NCBI RefSeq assembly: GCF_917563915.1
Contig: NZ_CAKJTI010000003.1
Span: forward strand, 62,001-126,000
Reading direction: 5' to 3'
DNA length: 64,000 nt
DNA from: Bacillus rhizoplanae
Lineage (GTDB): Bacteria; Bacillota; Bacilli; Bacillales; Bacillaceae_G
In this document: piece after piece, positions 8,270 through 62,716 of the stretch
Layout: each line of letters starts with the position of its first letter
Position numbering within the stretch: position 1 is the first letter of the stretch
Position numbers and translations under genes: made by a program
Notes under the pieces: model-generated
Seen by the model: only the letters and a program-made list of their open reading frames with translations
Told to the model about the DNA's origin: nothing
The model's database searches: none

Positions 8270-8971
8270 CTATTTGTTTGACCGCTTCTTTTGTGCCGGT
8301 CGTTGTCTAAGAAATTGTGACAGCATAAACAAAATATAGAGTGGAATAGCAATGAATAGAAAAATTGAAATATTACCAAAGCTCGTTTTATACATCGTAT
8401 AAATAATCCCAATTAAAAAGAGTGTTACGATAATACTATATTTTGGAATTGGTACATCTTTCATGCTTGGAATACGAATACGACTAACCATAAGAAATGC
8501 AAATGCCACGAATACTGTAATAAGTACGATTTTTGGAATCACATGTGAAAATAACGTTAAGAAAGCAACGATACCACCTGCAGCTGTAATTGGTACACCA
8601 GTAAAGTATTTCATTGATGTTGATGATGGTGTGACATTGAAGCGAGCTAATCTGTATGCTCCAAATAGAGGGAAAAGTCCTGCTATGTATAATCCGATAA
8701 TACCGTAATTAGAGAAGGATGTGTAATACATCAATACAGCGGGTGCAGCACCAAATGTAACTACGTCTGCTAATGAATCAAGTTCTTTTCCGAGTTGTGA
8801 ATCGACACGAAGTAAGCGTGCGATTCTTCCATCAAGGCTATCTAGCATCATTCCGATTAAAACTAAAATTGCCGCTGATTTGTAGTATCCTAATGAAGCG
8901 TAGCCGATGGATAGAAATCCACTATATAAATTTCCGAGCGTAAATAAGTTTGGAATGGCTGCTCTGTACAA
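8270..8971 (-). CDS. pssA: CDP-diacylglycerol-serine O-phosphatidyltransferase
   Basis: A 233-residue integral membrane protein that makes phosphatidylserine from CDP-diacylglycerol and L-serine, the precursor of phosphatidylethanolamine. The CDP-alcohol phosphotransferase signature is complete: DSLDGRIARLL, then G and D-x3-D in GKELDSLADVVTFG. About six membrane segments follow, and the tail is basic (RQRPAQKKRSNK). The start is TTG at 8971 behind AAGGGATC; an ATG alternative would remove the conserved N-terminus. No psd gene is adjacent, unlike B. subtilis. Single-gene unit ending at the hairpin 8232-8268. Confidence 0.92.
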   Translation of the reverse strand: MYRAAIPNLFTLGNLYSGFLSIGYASLGYYKSAAILVLIGMMLDSLDGRIARLLRVDSQLGKELDSLADVVTFGAAPAVLMYYTSFSNYGIIGLYIAGLFPLFGAYRLARFNVTPSSTSMKYFTGVPITAAGGIVAFLTLFSHVIPKIVLITVFVAFAFLMVSRIRIPSMKDVPIPKYSIIVTLFLIGIIYTMYKTSFGNISIFLFIAIPLYILFMLSQFLRQRPAQKKRSNK

Positions 8972-48528: not shown

Positions 48529-48585
48529 ATTTCCATCAGGGGGCTTCATCTTCAATTGATTGAAATCCTCATGAATTGGGATAAA
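48529..48585 (-). repeat. Degenerate short bcr1 copy
   Basis: ATAAAGTGACATTTCCATCA and GAATTGGGATAAA mark the two ends with an altered centre. The A-run at its right end joins the terminator at 48587. Confidence 0.65.
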
Positions 48586-48586
48586 A

Positions 48587-48632
48587 AGAAAAACACTGTA
48601 CAAACAGGGGGGAATGTACAGTGTTTTTCTTT
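48587..48632 (+). terminator. Strong hairpin upstream of the Fur-controlled pair
   Basis: agaaaaacactgtaca and tgtacagtgtttttct around a 14-base loop. It probably shields the downstream operon from incoming transcription. Confidence 0.75.
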
Positions 48633-48701
48633 ATGAAAAAAGAGGGGTAACAATGTTACTGAGCGTTTGGTTGATTCATCAATTGTTGGCTTCGTAATAA
48701 A

Positions 48702-48716
48702 TGATAATGGTTATCA
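48702..48716. promoter_or_regulatory. Fur box 1 (one mismatch)
   Basis: TGATAATGGTTATCA, a 7-1-7 inverted repeat with one deviation from TGATAATnATTATCA. Extra ATCATTATCATTG directly to the right extends it into an overlapping array to about 48727. Confidence 0.8.
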
Positions 48717-48764
48717 TTATCATTGTCAATAGTTTTTGTATTTTTTATTTTAAAAAAATTAAAG

Positions 48765-48793
48765 TTTACAAAAGAGTGATTTAATAATATAAT
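48765..48793 (+). promoter_or_regulatory. Sigma-A promoter of the lipoprotein pair
   Basis: TTTACA (48765-48770), exactly 17 bases, TATAAT (48788-48793). The second Fur box starts 14 bases after the -10, covering the expected start site. Confidence 0.8.
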
Positions 48794-48806
48794 AACAGCG
48801 TTTACA

Positions 48807-48821
48807 TGATAATAATTATCA
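48807..48821. promoter_or_regulatory. Fur box 2 (perfect 7-1-7)
   Basis: TGATAATAATTATCA is an exact match to the Bacillus Fur consensus core and is perfectly symmetric. Bound Fur-Fe would block transcription start from the promoter just upstream. PerR and Zur boxes share the 7-1-7 format but differ in core bases. Confidence 0.9.
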
Positions 48822-48846
48822 GTATCGTTAAAAGGGGCGGGAATAG

Positions 48847-50910
48847 ATGAAAAAGCCATGGAAAGTGATGACAACAGTTGCTGTTGTTTCCTCACTGTTA
48901 CTTTCAGTAGGGTGTACAGGTAAAAAGGAAGAGACGACGGCAAAAGAAAAAAGTACATATGTTGTACCAGTAACGGACTATACATTTGATACAGCTGCAA
49001 ACATGTTTGCATATGCAGAATTTGAATTAGCTGGGGAACCGTTAGCAGAAAGCTTAGGATTAGATTTAGATCTTTTAGATGCACAAAAACAAAATAAACC
49101 AACGAAATTTGATTATATGGCTGGAATCGAGTCTTATGAGTACTCAGAAGAAGGAATGTATGAGGTAGTAGAAAAATCAGGACTTGGCTTCCATTTACTT
49201 CATGCACCAATTGTACAGAAGATGACAAAAGAAACAAATAAAGAAGCGCCGTCTTGGCTAGAAGAGCGATTTTATACACTAGCAGATAGTGTAGGATATC
49301 CACATAAAGAAATTTTTGCAAATATGTATCCGACATTTATGGAATATGCCGGCGGTGATCCTCATTATACGCAAAAAGTAGATACGTCTATATATGCAGA
49401 AAATGATGATAAGACGTATGTACCAGCCTTCCAAATGGATTTTAAAACATTGCGCTGGGATCGTTCGAAAATGAATAAAACGTTAACACCAGCCGCATAT
49501 GGTTCAGCATTCTTAAAGCAAGCATTATGGGCGGGAGATTTTTTAGGTGGTTTCCATACAGTAGATAAGGACGAAGAATTAGAAGCTACATCAAATACGC
49601 AAGATCAAGATCCGAATATTCGCCTTGGAGTAAGTAGTGCTGATGGTATGCAAGGTGTTATTTTAACAGAAGAAATTTGGAATAAACTTTCATATATTCG
49701 CGATGGTCTATTCTATGATGCAAATACAAAACAATTAACGAATGGGGCAGGAAGCAAGTATAGTCCTGAGAGTGGTCTTGTTTACTTACCTCATGAGATT
49801 AAAGTAAATGAAGATGAAAAGAATGGCATTGCTAAAGCTGGTCAATTAGAAGTAAAAGATGCACGTAGTATGCTTCGCGATCAATGGATGATGTTATGGC
49901 CAACTGCTGAATTTTTCGGAATGACAGATCAGCGTCCAGATAATAAAAATGTGAATCCAGCGTTCCAAGCAACATTTGACGGTGCGCCTTTTGCAAAAGC
50001 AGTAGCAGAAAATACAGACTCTGATGCAGCGAATGATGTAAAAGCAGACGACCCTTACTCTTTAAATCGTGATGTCATGTTACAAGTCTTTAAAAATATT
50101 GAAGCAATGCATTATAATAAAGAAACAGGTGCATTTGTTACAGAGCATAGCGGAACAGAACAAGGCAAACGTATTGATACGTTTGATGCAGGTTATATGG
50201 TAGAAGCACTTCGTATATTCCAGCGTGCCATTGATGGTATGCCGGTTGGATATGCAAGCGGGGCAGAGGCACAAGGCTTACAAACAGAAGAAGGAAAACG
50301 TGCTCTTAATATGATTAAAACGCAAGCAGATTTCTTATTAAAGAATATGAAAACAAAAGATGGTTTTATGGCAAATAGCTATACAATTGGAAAAGGGCAA
50401 GATACTGAACCTGTGACATTAGAAGCACAGCTTGGAGCAATCCGAGGATTAACAGCGGCCTTTTTAGCAACGAAAGATGAAACGTATCGCGAAGAAGCGC
50501 GTAAACTATATGATTTAGTAGATCGTAAAATGTGGAACAAAGAAGCACATGCATATGAAACGAAAAAAGGTGAAATGAAATATACGCCTTATACAGCTGG
50601 AAGTGTATCAGCAGTGTTGCGTGTTGCATTGCAAAATTTAAGTAATACAGATGCGGATAAAACGAAATATGATTCATTAGAACAAAAAACGATTACTTCT
50701 CGTTATGTTGATTTTTATGATCAAGTAATCAATGGGCCTTCATTAAAAGAAGGGATGCAAACAAGTGAGTTCTGGGATACAGGCGATGTTTATATAAAAG
50801 GGAAGCTTGGAAATGCAGATAAGGATAATGTACCGCAAATTCAATCAGGTCATGGTAAGTATGGTATTGCGCCAGTTCTCGTAAATGTTGAAGTGAAGAA
50901 AGAAAAATAA
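48847..50910 (+). CDS. Large lipoprotein with alpha-toroid-like C-terminal half, Fur-controlled
   Basis: 687 residues, ATG 48847 after AAAGGGGCGGG. Lipoprotein signal MKKPWKVMTTVAVVSSLLLS with the lipobox-like SVGC. The mature part is acidic. The C-terminal half has helix pairs reminiscent of alpha/alpha toroids: DTFDAGYMVEALRIFQRAID, ALNMIKTQADFLLKNMKTK, LEAQLGAIRGLTAAFLATKD. The N-terminal half (about 60-380) I cannot assign. No heme or obvious enzyme motif. Iron-starvation expression is strongly implied by the promoter/Fur boxes, and the gene is followed, after a hairpin, by a di-heme cytochrome lipoprotein. A role in surface iron handling, or as partner or substrate of the cytochrome, is inference. 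Confidence 0.75.
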   Translation: MKKPWKVMTTVAVVSSLLLSVGCTGKKEETTAKEKSTYVVPVTDYTFDTAANMFAYAEFELAGEPLAESLGLDLDLLDAQKQNKPTKFDYMAGIESYEYSEEGMYEVVEKSGLGFHLLHAPIVQKMTKETNKEAPSWLEERFYTLADSVGYPHKEIFANMYPTFMEYAGGDPHYTQKVDTSIYAENDDKTYVPAFQMDFKTLRWDRSKMNKTLTPAAYGSAFLKQALWAGDFLGGFHTVDKDEELEATSNTQDQDPNIRLGVSSADGMQGVILTEEIWNKLSYIRDGLFYDANTKQLTNGAGSKYSPESGLVYLPHEIKVNEDEKNGIAKAGQLEVKDARSMLRDQWMMLWPTAEFFGMTDQRPDNKNVNPAFQATFDGAPFAKAVAENTDSDAANDVKADDPYSLNRDVMLQVFKNIEAMHYNKETGAFVTEHSGTEQGKRIDTFDAGYMVEALRIFQRAIDGMPVGYASGAEAQGLQTEEGKRALNMIKTQADFLLKNMKTKDGFMANSYTIGKGQDTEPVTLEAQLGAIRGLTAAFLATKDETYREEARKLYDLVDRKMWNKEAHAYETKKGEMKYTPYTAGSVSAVLRVALQNLSNTDADKTKYDSLEQKTITSRYVDFYDQVINGPSLKEGMQTSEFWDTGDVYIKGKLGNADKDNVPQIQSGHGKYGIAPVLVNVEVKKEK

Positions 50911-50925
50911 GTTTATGATATTAAT

Positions 50926-50959
50926 AAACCGAACAAGTTGATAAACTTGTTCGGTTTTT
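50926..50959 (+). terminator. Terminator between the two lipoprotein genes
   Basis: aaaccgaacaagtt and aacttgttcggttt around gata, then TTG. Very strong stem, so the second gene depends on read-through or on its own promoter in the 92 bases that follow, where I see no clear one. Confidence 0.88.
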
Positions 50960-51051
50960 GTGAAAAAAGGGTGTAACAAAGTCAATTTTCCATCAGTAGA
51001 AGATATAGATAACATGGAATGCTCGGATGAGTGAGAAAGAAGGGTTAGATA

Positions 51052-53010
51052 ATGAAGCGATTGTTTATGGCGGTTGTATTACTCCTATGTATAGGGATTT
51101 TTGCTAGTTGTGGGGTAAAAACATTAGGAAAAGAAGAGAAGCGCAATACTGCTGTTCATAGTAATAACATTGTAACGAGTGCTGATGGGAAATGGATTTA
51201 TACAGCAAATATTGATATTAATACAGTAACAGTTATGGATGCAAAAAGTAGAAAAGTAGTGTCAGAGATTCCAGTTGGTAAAGAACCGAGACAATTAACA
51301 ATCAGTCCGGATGGAACGAAATTATATGTTTCTTGTATGTACGATAATAAAGTTGATGTTGTTTCACTTGATAAGAAGAAAGTCATTGATCGAATTCCAA
51401 CTGAAATTGAACCATTTGGTGTTGTTACAAATCCAAATGGAACGAAGTTATATGTATCGAATTTTCGCTCCGGTAATGTATCAGTTATTGATCTTGAGAA
51501 GAAGAAAACAGTGCAAAAGATTGAAATTGGTGATCGCCCACGTACGCTTGCAATGACAAAAGACGGAAAGAAATTGTATGTACCGCACTATTTAGAGGGG
51601 AAAATTAGTGTTGTAGATACAGAGAGTAATAAAGTGAAGAAAGTGATTACACTTGCATCTTCACCGGATAAAGAAGACCGTAAAAAGAGTCAAGGAATTC
51701 CAAATACATTAGAGCAATTTGTTATTGCACCAGATGGAAAAACAGCTTGGGTTCCACATTTGCTTACAAATGTAGATACACCTATTCAGTTTGAAGAAAC
51801 AGTTTTCCCAGCTGTGTCGATTATTGATTTAGAAAAAGATGAGGAAATTATAGAGCAGCGGAAACAATTATTCGAAGCGATGAATGTGAAAGATACAAAA
51901 AATCAAACGATGATTGTATCAAATCCATATGACGTAGTTTTTAATGAAAAAGGCACAAAGGCATTTGTAGTTATGTCTGGTAGTGAAGATCTTATGATGT
52001 TTGATTTAACACGTGGAGGAAATGCAACGCAAATTGTAAGGCGCATTCCAGGAAGTAACCCACGCGGTATTACGTTGCTTCCAAAAGAAAATACATTAGT
52101 GGTTCATAATGCGATGAGTCATGATCTTGCTTTCCTAGAAACAGGGGGAGATGATTCATATGCAAAAGTGAAAGCTGATAAGAAGACAGTTAAATTAATT
52201 GAAAAAGATTCCTTATCAAAACTTGTGCGTGAAGGAAAAGAAATTTTCTACAGTGCAAATAGCGATAAATATGCAGCAGGGATTACAGGAAACAACTGGA
52301 TGAGCTGTGCAACGTGTCATAGTGATGGAGAAATTAATGGTTTATCATTAATGACACCAAAAGGGAAGCGAAATGTACCAAGTAACGTTTTAACAACAAA
52401 AACAGGTTTATTTATGTGGGATGGGTCACGTGATGATTTTACAGATTATATCCATACCGTACAAGGTGAAATGGGCGGTATGATGGAACTAGATCCTGGA
52501 AAAGAACTTCCAAAAGATGTGCAACATATGTATGATGCTTTGCAAGCCTTTTTAGATGATCCGAATTCGTACCCTATTCCAAAAAGTCCGTATCGTCAAG
52601 GAAATGGGGAATTAACACCTACTGCGAAAGACGGAGAGAAATTATTTAAAGGAAAGGCAAATTGTTTAACGTGTCATGGCGGTGATAATTTCACAAATAG
52701 CACAAAAGCTGTTGATGAAAATGGTAAATTAACGACGAACAATACAAACTTTCTTTATAACATCGGAACTGCCAATGAAACGGATACAGGTTATGATGGG
52801 GATGCACGTGGTGCTTTCCAAAATAAAAGGCAAAAAGGATACTTTGATCCTCCAACACTTCGCGGTGTATGGGCGACAGCACCGTACTTACATGATGGTA
52901 GTGCGAAAAACGTTGAAGAGGCAGTAGAAAAGCATCAATATGAAGAAAAGCCACAGCTATCAAAGCAGGAAGTTCATGCAATTGCGGAATATGTAAAGTC
53001 AATTCAATAG
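51052..53010 (+). CDS. Lipoprotein: YVTN beta-propeller fused to di-heme cytochrome c peroxidase/MauG-like domain
   Basis: 652 residues, ATG 51052 behind AAGAAGGG. Lipobox FASC after MKRLFMAVVLLLCIGI. Residues about 40-370 form a seven-bladed-type propeller with repeated YVTN-like blades (SPDGTKLYVSCMYDNKVDVV, NPNGTKLYVSNFRSGNVSVI). Residues about 395-650 carry two c-type heme sites, C419-A-T-C-H and C538-L-T-C-H, plus LRGVWATAPYLHDGSAKNVE, a signature of bacterial di-heme peroxidases and MauG. Heme is attached outside the membrane, so the protein acts on the cell surface. The substrate may be H2O2, a redox metal, or residues of a partner protein; not known. Placed after the Fur-controlled lipoprotein. 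Confidence 0.85.
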   Translation: MKRLFMAVVLLLCIGIFASCGVKTLGKEEKRNTAVHSNNIVTSADGKWIYTANIDINTVTVMDAKSRKVVSEIPVGKEPRQLTISPDGTKLYVSCMYDNKVDVVSLDKKKVIDRIPTEIEPFGVVTNPNGTKLYVSNFRSGNVSVIDLEKKKTVQKIEIGDRPRTLAMTKDGKKLYVPHYLEGKISVVDTESNKVKKVITLASSPDKEDRKKSQGIPNTLEQFVIAPDGKTAWVPHLLTNVDTPIQFEETVFPAVSIIDLEKDEEIIEQRKQLFEAMNVKDTKNQTMIVSNPYDVVFNEKGTKAFVVMSGSEDLMMFDLTRGGNATQIVRRIPGSNPRGITLLPKENTLVVHNAMSHDLAFLETGGDDSYAKVKADKKTVKLIEKDSLSKLVREGKEIFYSANSDKYAAGITGNNWMSCATCHSDGEINGLSLMTPKGKRNVPSNVLTTKTGLFMWDGSRDDFTDYIHTVQGEMGGMMELDPGKELPKDVQHMYDALQAFLDDPNSYPIPKSPYRQGNGELTPTAKDGEKLFKGKANCLTCHGGDNFTNSTKAVDENGKLTTNNTNFLYNIGTANETDTGYDGDARGAFQNKRQKGYFDPPTLRGVWATAPYLHDGSAKNVEEAVEKHQYEEKPQLSKQEVHAIAEYVKSIQ

Positions 53011-54148: not shown

Positions 54149-55966
54149 TTATTTGACTTCTTTTGCTTTTTGTAAGTCGAAATAAAAGGCAACACCATTT
54201 TCTTTATTATACACACCGTAATCGGCATGATGAAGTTCTAAAATATTTTTTACAATGGATAAGCCTAGGCCTGTTCCACCTGTATGACGGCTACGGGATG
54301 CGTCTAATCGATAGAAACGGTCCCATATTTTATCTAAGCTTTCTTCAGGAATCGGCGTACCGTTATTTTCAATTTCTACTTTTACCGTTTCTTCATACTC
54401 AATGACAGATAGCTTTACTTGTTTCCCAGCTGGTGTGTAACGAATTGCATTACTTAATAGATTGACGACAACTTGTTCAATGCGATTGCGATTTGCTTGT
54501 ACATAAATAGTTGGATCTAATGCAAGCTCTACGTGTAAATTTTTTTCTTCGATACTAAATAATAGCTTTGTATAAACTTGTTGGATTAATTCTCCGATTG
54601 AAAAAGCTTCAATTTCTAATTTATATGTGCCAGATTCAAGTTTTGCAAGTTCTAGCATTTCGACAATAAGGCGGTTCATATTATCAGTTTCTTCTAAAAT
54701 AACGTCGGTATAATACGTAGTATCTTTACTTACACCATCTTTAATGCCTTCAGCGAAACTACGGATTACACTTAGCGGTGTTTTTAATTCATGGGATACG
54801 CCAGAGATAAATTCTTTTCTTGTTTTCTCTAGCTGTCTTTCTATTTCAATATCTTGCTGTAGTTTTGTATTTGCTACATGCAATTTGTCAATTCGATCTT
54901 TTAAATTTACAGAAAGGCTGTTAATACTACTTGATAAGCTTCCAATTTCATCGTCTGTTGATATAGGAAGCTTTTCAGAAAAATCAAAGTTCGCCATTTT
55001 CTTTGTAACACGGTTCATTTTAATAAGCGGCTTTGCAATGATTTTTGAGTAATAGAATGACAATAAAATAATGACAATAAAGACGATAATTAATGCGTAA
55101 ACGTAATAATCTTTCAAAACAAGCATAGCTTCATCAACGGGCTGCAGTGATGTCATTGCAAATGCAAATTCTTTTATTTCACCATTTTTATAAACGGGTT
55201 TAACAAAAACCTGATTTTTCACTTCATTTTCCCCGCCCATTGTATACGTCGTCATTTCATTTGTATTTGTTTTTCCTAATGCGACAGAAAGCTCCCAGTG
55301 CTGAATGCCTTGGATTAATGTATCTTTATTTGCAAGACGAATATCAGTTGAGGTAGGAATGTGCAGTTTTGAAATAGTACCTTCAAATTTGCTAACACCA
55401 ACACCGTAATCCTGTGTATATAAAGTTCTTTTCACATCTTGAAGTTGTATACCAAATTGTTTCAAGTCTGAAATGATATTATCATTTTGCCATATTCTAT
55501 TGTCGGCAGTAGTAATTGTAATAGGAATAATCATATCTTGTTTTAAGATACCTTGTACACTGATTGGATCATTAATGTTTAATCCTAATTTTATAAACGA
55601 AGAATATTCATCGTTTGTGAAAATATTATTGAGTGGAATGAAAAATGTTTTATTAGACTTATCAACAAGTTCAATGTGATAATTTTTATCATCCTGAATA
55701 ATGCCATTACGATCTAGTAAGACGAGTTCAGCATTTGTTTTTTCATAAAATTCTTGTCTTAGCTTTGAAAGATCTTCAAATGTCTGATCGCTTTTTTCGT
55801 ATTTACTTACAAATTTTTCAAAAGATGTTTGGACCGTATGAATTTTTTTCTTTATATAAAATTTTTCTAAAAACAGTGATTGTCCAAGGAAAAAGAGTAA
55901 AAATGTAGCAGTAAACAATGCTGATGTTAATAGAAAAAGCTTAAACACAATGCTTCTTTTTTTCAC
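54149..55966 (-). CDS. Sensor histidine kinase without adjacent response regulator
   Basis: 605 residues, GTG 55966 after GAGGTGAAG. A membrane segment at about 10-30, an extracytoplasmic sensor domain of about 250 residues, a second membrane segment (YYVYALIIVFIVIILLSFYY), HAMP, HisKA with SGVSHELKTPLSVIRSF, and HATPase (NLLSNAIRYT, FYRLDASRSRHTGGTGLGLS). Such kinases normally follow their response regulator; here the upstream space holds only bcr1 and deoD. The signal is unknown; the sensor domain shows no cysteine or metal motif. Confidence 0.88.
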   Translation of the reverse strand: MKKRSIVFKLFLLTSALFTATFLLFFLGQSLFLEKFYIKKKIHTVQTSFEKFVSKYEKSDQTFEDLSKLRQEFYEKTNAELVLLDRNGIIQDDKNYHIELVDKSNKTFFIPLNNIFTNDEYSSFIKLGLNINDPISVQGILKQDMIIPITITTADNRIWQNDNIISDLKQFGIQLQDVKRTLYTQDYGVGVSKFEGTISKLHIPTSTDIRLANKDTLIQGIQHWELSVALGKTNTNEMTTYTMGGENEVKNQVFVKPVYKNGEIKEFAFAMTSLQPVDEAMLVLKDYYVYALIIVFIVIILLSFYYSKIIAKPLIKMNRVTKKMANFDFSEKLPISTDDEIGSLSSSINSLSVNLKDRIDKLHVANTKLQQDIEIERQLEKTRKEFISGVSHELKTPLSVIRSFAEGIKDGVSKDTTYYTDVILEETDNMNRLIVEMLELAKLESGTYKLEIEAFSIGELIQQVYTKLLFSIEEKNLHVELALDPTIYVQANRNRIEQVVVNLLSNAIRYTPAGKQVKLSVIEYEETVKVEIENNGTPIPEESLDKIWDRFYRLDASRSRHTGGTGLGLSIVKNILELHHADYGVYNKENGVAFYFDLQKAKEVK

Positions 55967-61801: not shown

Positions 61802-62716
61802 ATGAGTCAGCAAGAAGTGTTTACCGATTACTTTCATGAAGTTGAAAGTTGGTGCGAAAGTGTTCTCCACGTATTAGATAACCGGGCAACGGAAGTGTAT
61901 GATGTCCATATGCTTGCATATAAAATTCAAATGTTATTAGATCGTATTAAAGAAAATGAATATGATTATGATGCGGAGTTTGTTTATGAAATTAGTGATG
62001 ATGTTGAACATATTCAACATTACTTACAAGAGGCGTTAATGTCTGATTCAGAACAATATGTATTATACGAAAGAAATTATGTAGAAGCTTCTGTACCGAT
62101 TGGGGGACATACTCTTCCGCCACTTCCATATCCGTATAATGCACTTGAACCGTATATTTCAAGGGAAATTATGATGCTTCATCATGATAAGCATCATCGT
62201 AGTTATGTAGAAGGATTGAATAAAGCAGAGAAAATGATGGCAGAAGCACGAAAAACAAATCAATTTGATTTAATAAAGCATTGGGAGAGAGAAGCTGCTT
62301 TCCATGGTTCCGGACATTACTTACACACTATTTTTTGGAACAATATGAAAAAAGATGGTGGTGGTAGCCCACATGGAGACTTATCGAGGCAAATTGAAAA
62401 AGATTTTGGGAGCTTTTTACGTTTTCAAAAACATTTTACAGAAGCAGCAGCAAAGGTGGAAGGTTCTGGATGGGCAATTCTCGTTTGGGCACCTCGTTCC
62501 GGGCGATTAGAGATTTTACAAAGTACACTTCATCAATTATTTACGCAATGGGATACACTCCCTCTGTTAGTACTTGATGTATGGGAGCATGCATATTATT
62601 TACAATATCAAAACCGAAAGGAAGAATATATTAAGAATTGGTGGGATATTGTCAACTGGGGTGATGTAGAGAAAAGATTTGAAAGTGTAAAAGAACTTCA
62701 GTGGATACCATATTAG
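61802..62716 (+). CDS. Fe/Mn superoxide dismutase with N-terminal extension
   Basis: 304 residues, ATG 61802 behind GGAGGTG. The first 95 or so residues are an acidic helical extension (VFTDYFHEVESWCESVLHVL, DYDAEFVYEISDDVEHIQHY) absent from ordinary SodA. The dismutase domain has all four ligands: LHHDKHHRSY, the second His of GSGHYLHTIFW, and D/H in LDVWEHAYYLQY. The usual GGGH before the second ligand is GSGH. It corresponds to B. subtilis SodF and, I believe, to Sod15 of B. anthracis. Metal preference and activity are uncertain. Own terminator. Confidence 0.88.
   Translation: MSQQEVFTDYFHEVESWCESVLHVLDNRATEVYDVHMLAYKIQMLLDRIKENEYDYDAEFVYEISDDVEHIQHYLQEALMSDSEQYVLYERNYVEASVPIGGHTLPPLPYPYNALEPYISREIMMLHHDKHHRSYVEGLNKAEKMMAEARKTNQFDLIKHWEREAAFHGSGHYLHTIFWNNMKKDGGGSPHGDLSRQIEKDFGSFLRFQKHFTEAAAKVEGSGWAILVWAPRSGRLEILQSTLHQLFTQWDTLPLLVLDVWEHAYYLQYQNRKEEYIKNWWDIVNWGDVEKRFESVKELQWIPY

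Follow-up and report, generated by a model that had tools for sequence, protein, structure and literature searches.

What do two adjacent lipoprotein genes behind a Fur-type box do for a Bacillus cell that runs short of iron? The question is raised by a 64,000-nucleotide stretch of the Bacillus rhizoplanae genome (NZ_CAKJTI010000003.1, positions 62,001 to 126,000; hereafter the window), in which a first-pass annotation made from the letters alone had predicted two iron-repressed surface proteins, here called P1 and P2. That annotation had considered a surface redox step in iron uptake, removal of peroxide during iron stress, or oxidative modification of P1 by P2. Following up this proposal in related genomes, we found that it is likely that P1–P2 serves iron acquisition in some form, and that the pair is probably an unrecognized way to ready iron for import. 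As to mechanism, the best explanation we can offer, though a tentative one, is that P1–P2 forms an iron-repressed surface module of iron uptake in which P2 would oxidize Fe(II) and P1 would capture the product ahead of an FTR1-type permease.

We begin with regulation. The window contains a sigma-A-like promoter with a perfect Fur-type box in front of P1, as the first-pass annotation had described (Table 1). Counting loose boxes is not informative: sites with at most three mismatches number 19 in the whole window against a shuffle mean of 12.75, with 9 of 100 shuffles reaching 19, so that the position and the conservation of the box must carry the argument. For conservation, we scored open reading frames (ORFs) for an upstream box that departs from TGATAATNATTATCA or TGAGAATNATTCTCA at no more than two positions. 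Among 46 unique relatives (53 loci read minus seven duplicates, the window not included), 37 have such a box upstream of P1. By the same test, a box precedes 41 of 630 other ORFs in the relatives' loci and the window, and about 1% of shuffled upstream regions; part of these 41 boxes lie in an intergenic region common with P1 or before a same-strand upstream gene. No box was found upstream of P2 in any of 47 regions. Of the nine loci that lack a good box at P1, L069 and L082 have one farther upstream, before another gene and with no more than one mismatch; the remaining seven have no such box within 3 kb.

We can eliminate Zur as the main regulator, since the Fur consensus fits better in 16 of 16 Bacillota upstream regions, and also PerR, which loses to Fur in 15 of these regions and ties in one. 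Genes of a zinc-binding-protein family and of a GTPase family occur near P1–P2 in 10 and 7 of 47 loci, respectively (both labels come from one record). The word "cytochrome" is absent from the main text of two iron studies, one reporting B. anthracis iron-starvation arrays (PMC2742718) and one on B. cereus (PMC4896950), and because their locus tags could not be mapped to the window we draw no inference from this absence. Judged by box conservation, iron regulation of P1–P2 is very likely. With plentiful iron, Fur would occupy the box 3′ of the −10 element and block transcription; with scarce iron, both lipoproteins would be produced and anchored on the outer face of the membrane.

The second observation is that the two genes form a fixed unit, as had been suspected. 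A gene-neighbor survey places P2 after P1 on the same strand in all 46 unique Bacillota loci, with a gap of about 9–120 nt between alignment ends, and two further loci of the Brevibacillus order show the same arrangement. The pair is present in all 14 loci from named genomes and in an Anoxybacillus plasmid. Of 397 Bacillales genomes, 36 contain P1 and exactly these 36 contain P2, according to genome searches in which just the top few candidates of each genome are scored. The concern that the genes might rarely co-occur is thus answered, as neither was seen without the other in the Bacillota genomes searched. In a phylum-wide sample, P1 appeared in 2 of 398 genomes, both known already. P1 and P2 also diverge together: their distances correlate with r 0.92 (46 sequences), and with r 0.75 after removal of the UvrC distance (19 genomes, these being the P1-positive pairs, out of 21, in which UvrC was found). 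There is no third constant gene near P1–P2, the next most frequent neighbor family occurring in 12 of 47 loci. The nearest genomes found for the window are those of Ectobacillus and its family. On the 258-kb plasmid of Anoxybacillus amylolyticus (L001), the pair is accompanied by menaquinone and glycogen genes.

P2 is the more readily interpreted of the two proteins. Its predicted lipobox cysteine C20 is conserved in 45 of 46 aligned P2 sequences, a YVTN propeller spans residues ∼40–375, and a two-heme domain resembling cytochrome c peroxidase (CCP) and MauG follows at ∼385–652, in agreement with the first-pass assignment. The CCP_MauG family is matched with 31.8 bits (PF03150, cut-off 25.6), and the Cys and His residues of two CxxCH motifs (419–423 and 538–542, with C419 and C538) are invariant in 46 of 46 sequences, as are W456 and E473. 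The latter two may, by alignment and by passages of PMC12758564, correspond to the inter-heme Trp and the catalytic Glu of CCP and MauG. The nearest relatives of the di-heme domain are hydrazine synthase gamma, MbnH-type enzymes and bacterial CCPs. H628, present in 42 of 46 sequences, aligns with a Met that stands 12 residues after HDG in the solved CCPs 3o5c and 1iqc, and that presumably ligates the C-terminal heme in both. Of the four P2 proteins without this His, three (L015, L016 and L090) end in a stretch that contains HG and resembles the tail of hydrazine synthase gamma, and L069 has neither. Heme gamma-II of hydrazine synthase is reported as His/His in passages of PMC12758564. From these alignments, the C-terminal heme of P2 is likely His/His-ligated. 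P2 would accordingly differ from a classical CCP by a His where the Met ligand aligns. Several other identities were tried and rejected: MauG proper (TIGR03791, 42.5 bits against a cut-off of 443.85, with no Tyr at the aligned position in 46 of 46), MbnH (TIGR04039, 71 against 362.85), and hydrazine synthase (beta 99.7 against 560, gamma 48.3 against 625, fusion 104.9 against 1250). Neither DyP nor DUF1111 appears for P2 among the 25 of 29 Pfam matches listed, the check for DyP covering P2 and not the rest of the genomes. In Pfam and NCBIfam, neither P1 nor P2 showed a full-length match to a known enzyme family, so the refutation foreseen in the first-pass annotation, that both are known enzymes with other roles, did not materialize.

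With these residues in hand, a role in peroxide defense can be weighed. P2 would then be a cytochrome c peroxidase that clears peroxide under iron stress, with P1 as its scaffold. The CCP_MauG match and the conserved di-heme core are what such an enzyme should have, but the aligned Met ligand is absent, the upstream boxes are of the Fur rather than the PerR type, an expense of two hemes on detoxification amid iron shortage is implausible, and the fixed partner P1 is left unexplained. We regard this role, which the first-pass annotation had entertained, as very unlikely. On the explanation that we prefer, P2 would be a redox enzyme whose propeller serves as a docking platform and whose two c-type hemes make up a MauG/CCP-like reactor.

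P1 has no family match in Pfam or NCBIfam, which bears out the initial remark that its family could not be named. When 12 members were compared with Pfam, nothing significant emerged (best E 0.016). Matches to PDB profiles also remained below significance, with cellobiose 2-epimerase ranking first (E 0.021) and unsaturated glucuronyl hydrolases following (about 0.1). We take six of the eight PDB sequences and three of the six Pfam families among these sub-threshold matches to be (alpha/alpha) barrel enzymes, which would fit the earlier guess of an alpha-toroid, without being significant. An imelysin identity was rejected: PF09375 matched none of the 12 members at E up to 1, and hhalign against five imelysins gave a probability of 14.7% over 34 columns at the N terminus. 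The P1 family is nevertheless strongly conserved. The predicted signal-peptide cysteine C23 is kept in 47 of 47 aligned sequences, and five Trp (W204, W228, W278, W351 and W643, 47 of 47), four His (H173, H237, H316 and H422) and many Asp and Glu residues are invariant.

The invariant Trp residues give some substance to a rival explanation, in which P2 acts on P1 rather than on iron. By MauG-type maturation, P2 and peroxide would oxidize Trp or Tyr of P1, for example to kynurenine, and so complete a high-affinity iron site, making the pair an iron counterpart of the copper-repressed CorA/CorB and MopE/SACCP. The fixed pairing and co-divergence of P1 and P2 suit this idea, as does the presence of MbnH-type enzymes among the closest di-heme relatives of P2. 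On the other side, P1 has no family match and is far longer than partners of the CorA, MopE or MbnP type; at the axial position of the alignment P2 carries His in 42 of 46 sequences and Tyr in none, and two Aeromonas stretches encode a P1 homologue without an adjoining P2. As a precedent, passages of PMC3912023 describe CorA as a surface protein that copper represses, with a di-heme protein encoded on the same transcript and a kynurenine near the metal. On balance, we consider maturation of P1 as the function of P2 rather unlikely.

The strongest association of the pair is with a gene located elsewhere. In a sample of 36 P1-positive and 36 P1-negative genomes drawn from the 397 Bacillales genomes, PF03239 (FTR1) was found in all 36 of the former and in 14 of the latter. 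A profile for a short FTR1 type, applied above 400 bits, detected 93 of the 397 genomes, comprising 36 of 36 P1-positive and 57 of 361 P1-negative ones (98 genomes matched at E 1e-30, and five below 400 bits were excluded). The same type is present in nine of nine further P1-positive genomes, including Aneurinibacillus, Seinonella and two Brevibacillus. Across the Brevibacillus order, P1 was found in 4 of 39 genomes and the short FTR1 in 5 of 39, including the same four (4/4 vs 1/35; Fisher P 6e-5; at E 1e-20 there were matches in 28 of the 39, of which the 23 scoring below 100 bits were left uncounted). Since P1 is rare in this order and yet co-occurs with FTR1, this comparison is the best guard against an effect of kinship, though not a full one. 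In total, 47 of 47 P1-positive genomes tested carry the short FTR1, encoded apart from P1–P2, and P1 thus occurs only in sampled genomes with this one FTR1 type. The imelysin family provides an internal control. It was found in 7 of the 14 FTR1-bearing P1-negative genomes, and these are exactly the seven P1-negative genomes of the sample with FTR1 but no short type, there as imelysin/EfeO. This recovery of the known EfeU–EfeO pairing shows that the method can find real partners. Among P1-positive genomes, imelysin was found in 1 of 36, as a weak match. The short FTR1 scores 193.2 against the NCBIfam EfeU cut-off of 255.

The permease has its own setting. In 28 of 28 loci, from 28 genomes (21 P1-positive and 7 P1-negative; four more were scanned), the short FTR1 comes after a gene for an exported protein, and upstream of that gene lies a box with one mismatch or none. 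The operon, exemplified by L116:6373-8069 and recurring in 27 further loci, consists of a Fur box, the short FTR1 and an exported helper of ∼250 aa with a C-terminal hydrophobic stretch. Four helpers scanned gave no Pfam family above cut-off, with sub-threshold imelysin matches in two. In G003, the helper gene is preceded by a gene for a 400-aa lipoprotein (L145:1322-2521) that matches a FEA1-related lipoprotein model below cut-off; a family of ∼400-aa lipoproteins is encoded five ORFs before FTR1 in L105, L109, L124 and L131.

On the preferred explanation, P1 would be the dedicated partner of P2 and would receive iron. P2 would most likely oxidize ferrous iron with peroxide or oxygen, at or beside P1, and P1 would hand the ferric iron to the FTR1-type permease encoded elsewhere with its exported helper. 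The iron-uptake setting proposed at the outset is supported by the FTR1 association and by siderophore-transport genes at a few loci. Genes for a siderophore-type binding protein and permease lie near P1–P2 in 2 of 47 loci (G257 and G030), and FhuF-like genes also in 2 of 47 (G030 and G020). Downstream of the pair and on its strand, G257 has two ORFs for FecCD-type permeases, of which one was scanned with Pfam and the other resembles it, together with genes for an ATPase of the ATP-binding cassette (ABC) type, an SstD-like binding protein and an ABM-family protein. In G030, the pair lies near genes for an FhuF-like protein, for a binding protein of the siderophore type and for a permease that resembles the one in G257.

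Several observations weigh against this explanation. FTR1 was found linked to P1 only in G003, at a distance of ∼11 kb, and is absent from the 64-kb window, whose own genome is left out of the 47 of 47 count. The Fisher P values for the association ignore kinship. Corrected for UvrC, the distances of P1 show almost no correlation with those of FTR1 (partial r 0.14, 19 genomes), and without co-divergence direct contact between the two is unsupported. With the short type present in 57 P1-negative Bacillales genomes, the permease does not need P1–P2. No siderophore-transport gene was matched near the pair in 45 of 47 loci, and the transporter set of G257 has its own perfect box (L078:12437), so it is not simply part of the P1–P2 operon. 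The Aeromonas stretches L002 and L003 contain a P1 homologue and no P2, and these two homologues lack a good box directly upstream (5 mismatches). Finally, an apparent His in place of the CCP Met at the C-terminal heme hints at a low potential, which fits ferroxidation less well.

That last point leads to an opposite chemistry. As a ferric reductase, P2 would use a low-potential His/His heme to reduce ferric iron, or release it from a ferric catecholate, on P1, with entry through ABC importers or other routes. This idea draws on the probable His/His ligation, as in passages on hydrazine synthase heme gamma-II (PMC12758564). It also draws on the siderophore-type and FhuF-like genes just described, on a DoxX/MauE-like gene found before P1 in 2 of 47 loci, and on the P1 homologue of Aeromonas caviae, which lies close to a gene set for making a 2,3-dihydroxybenzoate siderophore. 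It is harder to reconcile with FTR1 as the strongest association and with neighborhoods that hold no conserved electron-donor gene. The invariant W456 and E473 point to peroxide chemistry, in so far as they correspond to the CCP residues. We judge a reductase role to be unlikely.

Outside Bacillota, a plasmid collection yielded P1 homologues in Aeromonas alone (four records, 43% identical). In L003:1947-13268 from Aeromonas caviae, the P1 homologue has no obvious lipobox and is flanked by genes for isochorismate synthase, 2,3-dihydroxybenzoate–AMP ligase, isochorismatase and nonribosomal peptide synthetase on one side and by a glgC-like ORF on the other; a perfect box stands in front of these siderophore genes at 8943. 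The P1 copies on Aeromonas plasmids in L002 and L022 also adjoin glgC. The 4.9-Mb record behind L003, which looks like a chromosome, contains a P2-like match ∼80 kb away (30.9% identity over 76% of P2).

A broader form of the ferroxidation scheme would join P1, P2, the short FTR1 and its helper into a four-component Fur-controlled importer of Bacilli whose parts were transferred together to relatives of Brevibacillus. In such an importer P2 would oxidize iron, and perhaps mature P1, and the system would replace EfeO and EfeB. In this complete form the proposal is, to us, somewhat unlikely.

How does the pair compare with described systems? Passages of PMC3143127 and PMC9174327 indicate that imelysin with DUF1111, or EfeO with EfeB, act in iron uptake. 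P1–P2 resembles EfeUOB and EfeUOBM in its Fur-type control, in the presence of an FTR1-family permease in the genome, and in combining an exported heme protein with an exported non-heme partner. EfeO/M has an imelysin domain, and neither Pfam nor profile comparison identifies P1 as an imelysin; where EfeB is of the DyP type, P2 combines two c-type hemes with a propeller and has no DyP among its listed matches; and P1–P2 lies outside the permease operon. In Pseudomonas aeruginosa PA4370-4373, passages of PMC3143127 describe Fur-regulated, metal-handling exported proteins with a di-heme peroxidase and no permease in the operon, a combination that P1–P2 shares. The difference is that P1 is not an imelysin, that P2 shows no DUF1111 among its listed matches, and that P1–P2 are predicted Gram-positive lipoproteins. 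Copper systems provide another comparison, since in CorA/CorB and MopE/SACCP, too, a metal represses a surface protein whose gene shares a transcript with that of a MauG/CCP-like di-heme protein, according to passages of PMC3912023. The metal there is copper, whereas here it would be iron, and P1 matches no Pfam or NCBIfam family. The MbnP/MbnH pair presumably follows the same design and differs in the same respects, and we know of no propeller fusion in any of these three systems. Hydrazine synthase beta/gamma, also in its fused form, shares with P2 the propeller and di-heme module, is its top-ranked di-heme PDB relative, and has the tail seen in three of the four P2 proteins without His628; P2 falls far below the fusion cut-off and P1 has no NCBIfam match. 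P1–P2 works most like imelysin with DUF1111 or EfeO with EfeB, and like CorA/CorB or MopE/SACCP, and by the features tested belongs to neither group. No such pair is described in the titles and abstracts found, which is not proof of absence.

One element of the initial description must be revised. The first-pass annotation had read the P1 promoter as carrying two boxes. Three sites with at most one mismatch to TGATAATNATTATCA exist in the window, namely at 48702, 48807 and 55677. The last (55677-55691) is a one-mismatch site within a sensor-kinase-like ORF (54149-55966) and is probably due to chance. The origin of the first becomes apparent by comparison with G020, whose P1 is 74% identical to that of the window and whose neighboring genes are common to both. 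Between a DUF72-type gene and P1, G020 contains a short gene with its own perfect-type box. This gene looks frame-broken; its relative in G351 has an open frame and a weak similarity to MauE and DoxX that does not reach the Pfam cut-offs. Window positions 48583-48738 align with the G020 stretch around that box (73.7% over 156 nt), and 48764-48821 align with the stretch directly before P1. Because the window aligns with both stretches and the gene between them is missing, the window seems to have lost the gene and kept its promoter box. The box at 48702 is probably such a leftover, by this alignment. A gene for a DoxX/MauE-like membrane protein separates P1 from a perfect Fur box in L069:11090-11620 and in L088, the L088 copy appearing frame-broken; these are the only 2 of 47 loci that have it. 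Both reading frames are thus confirmed, and Fur-type control, the two-gene unit and the iron-uptake setting are supported, whereas the two-box promoter is revised and simple peroxide removal is disfavored.

Table 1. Positions of the P1–P2 genes and their upstream elements in the window
Feature	Positions	Strand	Remarks
Upstream Fur-type box	48702..48716	+	TGATAATGGTTATCA, one mismatch; probably left over from the promoter of a lost DoxX/MauE-like gene
Sigma-A-like promoter, TTTACA-17-TATAAT	48765..48793	+	Read directly from the letters; TTTACA at 48765, TATAAT at 48788, spacer of 17 bases
Perfect 7-1-7 Fur box	48807..48821	+	TGATAATAATTATCA, just 3′ of the −10 element
P1, predicted lipoprotein of 687 aa, new family	48847..50910	+	ORF; lipobox C23
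P2, predicted lipoprotein of 652 aa	51052..53010	+	ORF; YVTN propeller and two-heme CCP/MauG-like domain

Strongly conserved and unmatched in Pfam and NCBIfam, P1 would represent a new protein family. If our explanation is true, the pair would be a heme-c-based Gram-positive counterpart of the EfeO/EfeB and imelysin/DUF1111 iron systems, and would suggest how an FTR1 permease operates in genomes without EfeO. It would also be an iron version of the copper-repressed pairs of a surface protein and a MauG-like enzyme, and the question of whether a di-heme peroxidase acts on iron or on its partner protein would become testable in easily grown environmental Bacilli.

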